The notes under the pieces: generated by a model
The model's database searches: none
Told to the model about the DNA's origin: nothing
Seen by the model: only the letters and a program-made list of their open reading frames with translations
Made by a program: the position numbers and the translations under genes
In this document: piece by piece, positions 5,418-33,886 of the stretch
Layout: each line of letters opens with the position of its first letter
Numbering within the stretch: the stretch's first letter is position 1
Assembly: GCA_913009415.1 (NCBI GenBank)
Contig: CAJVYM010000014.1
Span: forward strand, 1 to 34,253
Length of the DNA stretch: 34,253 nucleotides
Source: an uncultured bacterium
GTDB lineage: Bacteria > Bipolaricaulota > Bipolaricaulia > UBA7950 > UBA9294
Direction of reading: 5' to 3'

Positions 5418-6332
5418 TTGAGGGCCGCTCTTTCCACGCGTTTGTGGCCAATCGTGCGTGCCCTTGCCCTGCAGGCGCTCGATTGGAGTGGCTGGGCCGC
5501 GTTTCTGCCCACACTCGCCGTCTTGGCCGTTACCTCTCATACCTTCGGTTGGCCATCGCTCAGCCCGGATCATGCGCACCTGCTGATCACCCCGGAGGTG
5601 CGCGTTTGGCTGATGGTGATCGCTCAACTCACTGGACTGTCGATGTTCGTCCTTTCCTGGCGGCTGATAGAGCACAAGACGCTCCCCGACATGCTCCTGG
5701 ATCACTCCCGTGACCTGTTGCGCCCGCTCATGCTCGGCCTCTCCTCCGGGGCGGGGGCGATCTCCCTGGTCGCGCTGGGGATTATGGCAAGCGGATCCCT
5801 GCGCCTAACATGGGGAAGCCCCGCCATCTCGGGGCACGCCACACTTGCGGGAGTGGGCTTCCTGATCGCCACTTCTTTCCTCGGACCGCTCACAGAGGAG
5901 ATCGAATCGCGCGGATACCTGTTTCAAAACGTCTTCCGCGGCTGGGGAACTGCAGTGGCAACGATCGTCACCGCGCTCGTCTTTGCCGCCAGGCACCTGC
6001 AGAATCCGAACGTGAGCGCACTCGGCATCATCAACATCGCTCTCATCTCGATCGGGCTAACGCTGGGGATGTTGCGCCTACGGTCACTGTGGTACACGAT
6101 TGGGTGGCACATCGCCTGGAATTTTTCTCTCTTGTTCATTTTCGGATTTGCAAACTCTGGCTATTCTCTGGAAACGTTCAGCCTTTCTGGAATGAGTCTC
6201 TTCTCCTCTACACTATCCGGGCGAGCTTGGCTGACCGGTGGCGGCTTCGGCCCCGAGGGGAGCGTTGTTGCTACCAGCGTGATACTGCTTCAGATCGTTA
6301 TTATGTGGAGAATTCCCGCCAAGGCTTCTTGA
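5418..6332 (+). CDS. CPBP-family (CAAX/Abi) intramembrane protease, TTG start
   Basis: Multi-TM protein with 'TEEIESRGYLFQNVF', 'FAARH' and 'GWHIAWNF' motifs. Confidence 0.85.
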   Translation: MRAALSTRLWPIVRALALQALDWSGWAAFLPTLAVLAVTSHTFGWPSLSPDHAHLLITPEVRVWLMVIAQLTGLSMFVLSWRLIEHKTLPDMLLDHSRDLLRPLMLGLSSGAGAISLVALGIMASGSLRLTWGSPAISGHATLAGVGFLIATSFLGPLTEEIESRGYLFQNVFRGWGTAVATIVTALVFAARHLQNPNVSALGIINIALISIGLTLGMLRLRSLWYTIGWHIAWNFSLLFIFGFANSGYSLETFSLSGMSLFSSTLSGRAWLTGGGFGPEGSVVATSVILLQIVIMWRIPAKAS

Positions 6333-6357
6333 CAGGCAGGCCGGGCTGGCCTATAGT
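6329..6357 (+). promoter_or_regulatory. Sigma-70-type promoter for the tRNA / RNase H-like transcription unit
   Basis: TTGACA (6329-6334), 17-nt spacer, TATAGT (6352-6357); -35 overlaps the stop codon of the upstream CPBP gene. Confidence 0.8.
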
Positions 6358-6372
6358 CGATTATTGTAATAA

Positions 6373-6444
6373 GGGTCCATAGCTCAGCGGCAGAGCAACC
6401 GGCTCATAACCGGTCGGTCCCAGGTTCGAACCCTGGTGGGCCCA
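6373..6444 (+). tRNA. tRNA with CAT anticodon (elongator Met, or Ile2 if lysidine-modified); no encoded CCA
   Basis: Cloverleaf: GGGTCCA/TGGGCCC acceptor, GCTC/GAGC D-arm, ACCGG-CTCATAA-CCGGT anticodon arm, CCAGG-TTCGAAC-CCTGG T-arm, discriminator A. Confidence 0.95.
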
Positions 6445-6450
6445 CAGGAC

Positions 6451-6972
6451 ATGGAAAAGCTGTTTGTATACACCGACGCACGTGCGCAGAATGATCCGGG
6501 CGAAGCTGGGATCGGTATAGCGATTACCGACAAAGACGGAAACGCCATCGAGGAGATCGCGCGCCTCATTGGGCGTGCTACGTCGCGGATCGCACGTTAC
6601 CGTGCCCTGATCGAAGGCGCACGAGCAGCACTCGCCTACTCTCCGCAATCAGTGATCTTCTTCTCCAACGACCAACACCTGGTAAACCACTTAAACGGGG
6701 TGTTTGCCACCAGGGAGCCTCACCTCAAACACCTCTTGGAGATCGCACGTGGGATCCTGGAGAACTTCCCGCAATGGCGAGTGAACTTCATCGATCAGAA
6801 CGTGAACCAGCAGGCTTCTCATCTCGTCGAACAGGCGTTTCACGACAACGCTCGGGCAAAGATGAGTCGTGAGCACCTGGAGCTGCGTCTACTGGCGCGC
6901 GTAGCCACACTCGACGATGCTCGCCTGGAGCAACTGATAGAGTTCGCCGAGAGGCTAGAGAAGAGAGACTGA
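6451..6972 (+). CDS. RNase H-like (RNase HI / reverse-transcriptase-like fold) protein
   Basis: 'KLFVYTDARAQNDPGEAGIGIAITDKDGNAIEEIARLIGRATSRIARYRALIEGARAAL'. The listed ORF start at 6436 lies inside the tRNA; the ATG at 6451 is preferred. Confidence 0.8.
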   Translation: MEKLFVYTDARAQNDPGEAGIGIAITDKDGNAIEEIARLIGRATSRIARYRALIEGARAALAYSPQSVIFFSNDQHLVNHLNGVFATREPHLKHLLEIARGILENFPQWRVNFIDQNVNQQASHLVEQAFHDNARAKMSREHLELRLLARVATLDDARLEQLIEFAERLEKRD

Positions 6973-6974
6973 CG

Positions 6975-7433
6975 ATGCGCATCGTCTTGCAGCGTGTCAG
7001 CAGGGGAGAGGTGCGTGTCGACGGGCAGGCGGTCGCCGCGATAGGAAGAGGGGTCGTCCTTCTTGTTGGCTTCACTCACGATGACAGCGAGGATCTCTTC
7101 GCGCGCGCAGTGGATAAGATCGTTGATCTACGGATCTTCGAGGATGAAGGCGGGAAGATGAATAGATCGTTGCGCGATATCTCAGGTGAGGTCATCGCAG
7201 TCCCTCAGTTCACGCTGTACGGGAGCACGAAGAAGGGGCGTCGGCCAAGCTTCGCCCATGCCGCCCTCCCGCAACACGCGGCGAGGTTGTTTGATCTATT
7301 CGTCGATGCGCTGAGCAAAACAGGGGTGCCGGTGCAGAGTGGCGTATTTGGCGCTCACATGGAAGTTGACTTGATAAACGACGGGCCGGTCACGTTCGTT
7401 CTCGACCTTGCGCCTCCTGTTAGGAGCGGCTAA
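6975..7433 (+). CDS. dtd: D-aminoacyl-tRNA deacylase
   Basis: 'MRIVLQRVSRGEVRVDG', 'VPQFTLYGSTKKGRRPSF', C-terminal 'NDGPVTFVLD'. Confidence 0.96.
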   Translation: MRIVLQRVSRGEVRVDGQAVAAIGRGVVLLVGFTHDDSEDLFARAVDKIVDLRIFEDEGGKMNRSLRDISGEVIAVPQFTLYGSTKKGRRPSFAHAALPQHAARLFDLFVDALSKTGVPVQSGVFGAHMEVDLINDGPVTFVLDLAPPVRSG

Positions 7434-29415: not shown

Positions 29416-30180
29416 GTCGCGGTAGGGACACCCGTCGCCGGGTGCCCCCCGCACAGATCCGGACGTGAGGAATTACGCTCATCCGGCTCCTACCTCGGGT
29501 TAATGACGCGGAAGCGTTAACTGCTTCCCGCACTCGCTTCAGTCCCTGTGACACACCTCTGGGCTCAATGTAGGTACTTCCTCTTGGCTGTATCCGCGGT
29601 TTCCCGCTTCGTGCCCGTTTAGAGTTCACCATATCGCTCCCTCCGTCTCTGTGTCCGGCGTGTGCTGGACTCAAACGAGTTCCCCTTGGTCAGGCCCCTT
29701 CCCTCCACCATCTCCGCCGGTCGGTGGCCGGTCTTTCCCGGTTGAGAACCTTTGTTCGACGGCTTCTATGGTACTATGGGCCTGTCCGACTGCCCGGTCA
29801 CGTACATGCTGGGATTGTGGTCACAGACCTTCCCCAGCCGGACTGAGCTAAGGACCCACTCAGTCGCTTCCGGGCTCTCCCGGTTCCCGCGCATGGAGCT
29901 TCTACGCATGCAGAGGGTCTCGGACTCCGTGGGCCGGTACGCACCTCGCCTAACGCTGCGCACCGTGTTGTCTTCCCCATATGAGTACAAGGTCGACGCA
30001 CCAAAAGGCTGATTTCGGAGCTCAATACCTCGCCTGCGCAGCCCCGCGCCAACGCTTCGCCGCCCCCTTACACGGGTAGCCGACGCATGACTCGGGTCCG
30101 TAGCGGCTCGCTACGCCTTACTACGTGGTGGACTTTCACCACCTCCTCCATGCCGGTTTTTACCGGCGCTTTCACCCACT
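29416..30180 (-). mobile_element. Group II intron, apparently lacking the intron-encoded protein (boundaries approximate)
   Basis: Minus strand: 34-nt domain V-like GAGCCGGATGAGCGTAATTCCTCACGTCCGGATC (29456-29489), domain VI-like GGGCACCCGGCGACGGGTGTCCCTACC, 'GGTGGTGAAAGTCCACCAC' domain I-type motif near the 5' side (~30130-30148), GTG-type 5' end near 30175-30184; no RT ORF within. Confidence 0.7.
29456..29489 (-). ncRNA. Group II intron domain V (catalytic hairpin)
   Basis: 34-nt hairpin GAGCCGGAT...GTCCGGATC with AGC catalytic triad and CG-type bulge. Confidence 0.72.
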
Positions 30181-33025: not shown

Positions 33026-33886
33026 CATGTCTGGAGAGCCAGGCGCGAGATCGAGGTAGTTATGGCGGAGGCTTGCCTGGTGCCACGACTCTCCACATAA
33101 GACACTAGAGAACCACTTCATATTTCTTGATGCTAGTGGTATAATATGATTTGTGTATCCCGAACAGAAGGAGGTAAAGCAGGGGTTGGAACCCAAGATC
33201 TGTTTTTTTAGGTAAGCACAGATCTTCTCTGAGTCAACGGTGCTCCTTGTCTTAGAGTAAATTATCCAATGAATGATGGAGGAGCTCAATCGCACATCCG
33301 CTACTTGGTTAAGCACCGATTTTCGCGCGGGTATAACCGTCACAGCGATATAACATTTGACCGACAGTGGGATGCTACCGAAACTTCAGGACAAGGTTAG
33401 ATCCTCCAGGGCCAGGCAGCTGTTGTGGGCAAGCGTTCTACGAACGAGGCACGCAGGGCTTCGTAGCGCTGTTGCCAGTCGTTCTCAGGATGAGCCTAAA
33501 GAAGCTAGTATCGCGCATGGATAATATTATATGCTATGACGCTTACATGTCAAGTTCTCGAAACATAAAACTTAATCATTGACATGCATCCCTCGCGAGG
33601 AGCAATTGTGCTAAAACGTCAATATGCTGAACTGGCCGGAATTAGCACATAACTTGTGCGTTCATACTGGTGAAGGAAGAAACTCATTGTTTGTGTTCTA
33701 ACAGTTGGATGGTTTACTCAAACCGTCATACGTACTAACATCCGTCTACGGTATGCCAAGCTGCGACAAGGAAGGCAAAGCAGTTAGTATGGCCTCTTGC
33801 GGGATTGAGACGCTAGACAGATGCACACCAATCAGCCAAAATCATTAGCCCAAAGTTCGCGCGAAAATCGATGTTAAGGAGATTTT

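Follow-up and report, generated by a model that had tools for sequence, protein, structure and literature searches.

Results

A tRNA gene and an RNase H-fold gene lie head to tail behind a promoter

The window, the whole stretch of 34,253 nucleotides analysed here, comes from an uncultured bacterium of the Bipolaricaulota. The locus under study comprises the following features:

6329..6357, plus strand: sigma-70-type promoter, TTGACA-17-TATAGT, near-consensus and in the same place across the family
6373..6444, plus strand: tRNA-CAU, assigned as tRNA-Ile2 by elimination; discriminator A6444, CCA not encoded
6445..6450, plus strand: spacer CAGGAC, 6 nt from discriminator to start codon, the predicted 5' leader of the processed mRNA
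6451..6972, plus strand: RNase H-fold protein (RVT_3), 173 aa, with three of four catalytic positions changed and a helical C-terminal extension
6975..7433, plus strand: dtd, D-aminoacyl-tRNA deacylase, starting 2 nt past the stop codon of the RNase H-fold gene

The promoter matches 11 of the 12 consensus bases, a pattern expected 0.02 times per window, and is the sole promoter match between 5400 and 8000. Its -35 box overlaps the TGA stop codon (6330-6332) of the upstream CPBP-protease gene, and its end lies 15 nt before the tRNA, which was called by ARAGORN at 6373-6445 and by Rfam at 6373-6444 (RF00005, 68.2 bits). The ATG of the RNase H-fold gene occupies 6451-6453. The first-pass annotation had described a near-consensus promoter about 15 nt before a tRNA-CAT, a discriminator at 6444 and an ATG at 6451; the promoter was found as described, and both positions were exact, with the six bases CAGGAC between them. 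It had also proposed that this promoter serves tRNA and CDS alike. Comparison with relatives supports this, as a near-consensus promoter before the tRNA is kept across the family loci, and no promoter was detected between tRNA and CDS. In nearly all family loci, dtd follows the RNase H-fold gene within a few nucleotides. The anatomy and its conservation make a single co-transcript of tRNA and CDS highly likely, and tRNA and protein gene apparently share one promoter in Bipolaricaulota.

Elsewhere in the window, both on the minus strand, are the only other promoter match (TTGACA-N16-TATAAT, 33526-33553) and a group II intron match of full model length (RF02005, 154 bits, 29915-30136), next to which no reverse transcriptase ORF was noted in the ORF list.

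The genome carries three CAU tRNAs, the other two of which lie in a tRNA cluster and were read as initiator and elongator Met. Because the tRNA at 6373-6444 is distinct from both, and a TilS homologue scoring above its cut-off is present, we assign it as tRNA-Ile2, by elimination within a draft genome that is ~91% complete; lysidine modification is predicted. CCA is encoded by 18 of the 47 distinct tRNAs read from the genome, this tRNA not being among them.

The short gap between tRNA and start codon is conserved

A homologue of the RNase H-fold gene was found in 54 of 60 related genomes, and its best named relatives were Bipolaricaulota records (81-90% identical). A tRNA-CAU lies 3-11 nt before the start codon in all 30 same-family loci, which span ~50-100% protein identity and include one, L026, whose contig begins within the tRNA. 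Among the named Bipolaricaulota loci, the tRNA is no more than 123 nt from the CDS in 46 of 49; of the remaining three, one has it at a distance of 480 nt and two are truncated at a contig end, the 3' half of the tRNA being still present in one of these. In other phyla, none of 31 loci has a tRNA within 400 nt of the homologous gene. By these comparisons, the tRNA-CDS arrangement is not due to chance. Synteny in relatives, which the first-pass annotation had named as a check, was found: the arrangement, a tRNA abutting a same-strand CDS, is conserved in every same-family locus and in most of the phylum.

Gap length ranges from 2 to 123 nt across the phylum. The gaps of 3-11 nt form one clade in the protein tree, corresponding to the order of this genome, and short gaps have arisen independently outside it, in L174 and L187, each with 3 nt against 26-43 nt in their relatives, and in L169/L185 (10 nt). 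Individual values include 37 nt in L172 and L173 and 29 nt in L175. The spacer sequences are not conserved among the family loci.

ATG 6451 is the start codon and lacks a usable Shine-Dalgarno sequence

The gap lengths among relatives occupy all three frames, so the frame does not run on from the tRNA, and a start inside the tRNA (the in-frame GTG at 6436) was ruled out by this variation of the gap modulo 3. A true start further downstream, which the first-pass annotation had allowed for, was likewise ruled out. Although the gap varies in length, the ATG and the N-terminal residues are kept, with conservation in the alignment from Met1 and Lys3 onward. The predicted structure (mean pLDDT 93.1) has its first beta-strand starting at residue 3, so that a downstream start would remove a core strand. 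ATG 6451 is the true start.

No fitting Shine-Dalgarno (SD) motif for this ATG was found in the spacer or the tRNA end. AGGA (6446-6449) is only 1 nt from the ATG, and GGTG, in the T-arm/acceptor stem, lies at a distance of 12 nt and is base-paired within the tRNA; the earlier view that there is no room for an SD or a second promoter thus holds. An SD-like motif is rare among tight spacers (2 of 28) but not among wider ones (13 of 23), and the spacer in the window has none at usable spacing. Since some f3 lineages with a wider gap are also without an SD, SD-less initiation need not depend on the short leader.

SD sequences were found elsewhere in the genome, for example before the ATG of rpmF in the window (AAGGAGGAACA). 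Statistics were taken from ~420 kb of the genome and the tRNA loci. Among 46 unambiguous starts in the ~420 kb, 21 had an SD-like match of at least 4 bases (30% in shuffles) and 8 had a 6-base match (2.5% in shuffles). SD translation is, on these counts, in use in this genome.

A second conserved tRNA-CDS pair is tRNA-Pro(UGG)-dnaX (L071, at G000:C108 with the tRNA at 467-540, and L119-L148). Its apparent 6-nt gap made it a candidate near-leaderless case, which was rejected when alignment placed the start codon 13-28 nt from the tRNA. The aligned start codon is mostly GTG, mostly behind an SD-like spacer, and the spacers in family loci (13-28 nt) are mostly purine-rich. Because this spacer is longer and SD-like, only the tRNA-Ile2 pair, of those examined, has the 3-11 nt gap.

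These comparisons bear on whether the spacing has any functional meaning. The gene could simply hitchhike on transcription of the tRNA in a compacted genome and be weakly translated, a reading with which the free drift of gap length and sequence across the phylum agrees, as does the same tRNA-CDS habit of dnaX with its SD-bearing spacer. The gap of the tRNA-Ile2 pair, however, has been held short through a whole order, and tRNA-Pro-dnaX has kept its longer spacer, which makes simple compaction very unlikely.

Leaderless initiation appears to be available in this genome

A leaderless mRNA is defined as one with a 5' leader of <10 nt (PMC4681348). RNase Z cleavage behind A6444 would leave a predicted leader of 6 nt, and the mRNA would fit this definition if the predicted 5' end is correct; the 9-11 nt leaders of some family members are at its edge. 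The claim that tRNA 3' processing leaves a near-leaderless mRNA is supported by comparison.

Counting TATAAT-like hexamers whose last base lies 4-11 nt ahead of a candidate start gave 26, versus 11 in shuffles; the count is small, considered up to 4 starts for each ORF and relied on simple shuffling. On L083, L084, L088, L093 and L100, the distance from a -10 hexamer to the start codon of a gene is 4-9 nt, which hints at leaderless transcription in Bipolaricaulota. Leaderless-type promoters precede, as judged by eye from translations, a likely hslV and genes for a Fur-type regulator, an aconitase-family enzyme and a DeoR-type regulator. These results suggest that leaderless initiation is available in this genome.

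The apparent presence of such promoters raises the alternative that a separate promoter within the tRNA gene directly makes a leaderless transcript of the CDS. Bases 7-13 before the ATG, however, belong to the acceptor stem and T-arm and contain no TANNNT in the window and the family sequences listed, and no promoter match was found inside the tRNA gene. We consider an internal promoter extremely improbable.

Predicted tRNA processing and start-codon accessibility

Thermotoga maritima RNase Z cuts behind the discriminator where the precursor lacks CCA. Where CCA is encoded, the cut falls after the CCA (Minagawa et al. 2004, cited in PMC7479834). The genome encodes a homologue of the Thermotoga-type RNase Z, at 268.7 bits (E 5e-80), below the NCBI curated cut-off of 507.

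Folding predictions gave about equal accessibility of the start codon in precursor and cleaved RNA for most of the 24 sequences. An RNA structural switch was rejected as a candidate, with similar accessibility with and without the tRNA and a leader fold z-score of 0.20.

The equal predicted accessibility would also suit translation beginning on the unprocessed precursor, with the ribosome loading ahead of tRNA cleavage, while the RNA is nascent or partly unfolded, so that tRNA folding or cleavage would compete with expression. This reading is weakened by the tRNA itself, which contains no conserved SD at usable spacing, several members having no GGTG at the distance of 10-13 nt from the start. 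Moreover, with only 3-11 nt between its end and the AUG, a folded tRNA would fall within the footprint of the 30S subunit. Translation of the precursor is therefore unlikely, and initiation on the cleaved mRNA is preferred.

The RNase H-fold protein is conserved but has a degenerate active site

The first-pass annotation had called the gene RNase H-like. For the fold, this description stands: the protein matches Pfam RVT_3 (58 bits), and its predicted structure matches Halobacterium RNase H1 in Foldseek (E 6e-16), with TM-scores by target length of 0.95 to the Halobacterium-type RNase HI (4e19) and 0.89 to LC11 RNase HI (3u3g); profile comparison gave E 5e-25 and 2e-29, respectively. Catalytic residues, however, are missing. 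The D-E-D-D residues of RNase HI are replaced by D-R-N-S, and, unlike 4e19 and 3u3g, whose fold it shares, the protein carries a helical C-terminal extension of ~40 residues.

Four outgroups have D-E-D-D at the catalytic positions and most Bipolaricaulota outside the order have D-E-D-H. Inside the order, the positions are D-E-D-P or further eroded, and erosion has occurred repeatedly. Catalytic loss tracks the tight gap only partially, many tight members keeping D, E and D at the first three positions.

Omega for the CDS was 0.03-0.15 in pairs of close relatives, some with saturated dS, indicating that the gene is under purifying selection, which is probably not selection for RNase H catalysis. 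Because a separate gene in the genome scores as an ordinary RNase HI (169.5 bits for RNase_H), housekeeping RNase H activity likely resides there.

The homologous gene neighbours rnpB in 14 of 31 loci of other phyla

In 14 of the 31 non-Bipolaricaulota loci (L198-L228), the homologous RNase H-like gene lies directly upstream of the RNase P RNA gene on the same strand. A tRNA-Ile2-like CAU tRNA lies upstream, also on the same strand, in L199, L211 and L220, of which two are Nitrospirae records and one is from Deltaproteobacteria. The order in the two Nitrospirae records is tRNA, Nif3-like gene, zinc-ribbon gene, RNase H-like gene and rnpB, the Nif3 and zinc-ribbon names having been assigned by reading translations. 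The rnpB gene lies elsewhere in Bipolaricaulota: all 14 family genomes compared carry it on the same contig as dnaX, at a distance of 2-8 kb from that gene. The Bipolaricaulota fusion may, on this gene order, be a condensed remnant of a tRNA/RNase H-like/rnpB neighbourhood.

The neighbourhood bears on the claim of the first-pass annotation that tRNA maturation could switch expression of the downstream gene. In such a switch, rates of RNase P and RNase Z cleavage or tRNA folding would set the levels of the protein and of DTD, perhaps with feedback from the RNase H-fold protein on tRNA processing. The outgroup location beside rnpB is a link to tRNA processing; in addition, the tight coupling has been held over an order and has shrunk independently elsewhere, and the protein is under selection though its active site is lost. 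Folding predictions, however, yielded no alternative RNA structure, the spacers lack sequence conservation, and constitutive processing explains the data as well as a switch would and, together with genome compaction, accounts for the anatomy. The claim of a switch did not gain from the analysis, and we regard it as quite unlikely.

Discussion

The reading that we favour, with a probability of roughly 0.6, is that tRNA and mRNA are made as one transcript, from which RNase P and RNase Z release the tRNA and an mRNA whose leader is 6 nt long; this mRNA is translated by leaderless-type initiation with dtd coupled to it. One sigma-70-type promoter would give a single transcript of tRNA-Ile2(CAU), the RNase H-fold CDS and dtd. 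RNase P would cut the 5' end of the tRNA and, because CCA is not encoded, the Thermotoga-type RNase Z would cut behind discriminator A6444, which would leave 6 nt of leader on the freed mRNA (3-11 nt across the family). Since this leader is too short for an SD, leaderless-type initiation at the AUG of the freed mRNA is proposed, and dtd, 2 nt past the stop codon, would be reached through translational coupling. Synthesis of DTD and of the RNase H-fold protein, probably non-catalytic, would thereby be tied to a single-copy tRNA. We infer the cleavage site, leaderless initiation and the coupling to dtd from the arrangement of the locus.

In animal mitochondria, excision of tRNAs at both ends sets the 5' ends of mRNAs, which have few or no leader bases. 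The Bipolaricaulota locus resembles this tRNA punctuation in that tRNA excision would set the 5' end of a short-leader mRNA, and cutting of the tRNA probably creates the messenger 5' end much as it does there. It differs in lying on a bacterial chromosome behind a dedicated promoter, with one tRNA before one operon and processing that is predicted, and in a genome that also uses SD translation. A fuller bacterial counterpart, in which 3' processing both makes and gates the leaderless mRNA and the pseudoenzyme acts back on tRNA-Ile2/RNase P processing, is a speculative and rather improbable extension.

In Escherichia coli, the thrU-tufB and metY-nusA operons likewise place a tRNA and protein genes behind a single promoter; there, the stretch from the tRNA to the start codon is long enough to hold an SD, whereas only 3-11 nt are available here. 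Leaderless mRNAs of Streptomyces and Propionibacterium are similar to those predicted here in having no SD and, in most members, a leader of <10 nt; their 5' ends, however, come from the transcription start (PMC4681348, PMC3848588), and the end predicted here comes from tRNA 3' processing. In the open-access literature, we found no report of a leaderless mRNA derived from tRNA excision in bacteria and none on this gene neighbourhood.

That this RNase H paralogue recurs in several phyla beside either tRNA-Ile2 or rnpB suggests that it may have an undescribed function in tRNA metabolism. If the favoured reading is true, this locus would be a conserved bacterial case in which tRNA excision, not the promoter, sets the 5' end of an mRNA and its mode of initiation. 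It would link leaderless translation, tRNA processing and operon design in a little-studied phylum, in which tight-gap and wide-gap lineages provide a comparison made by nature.
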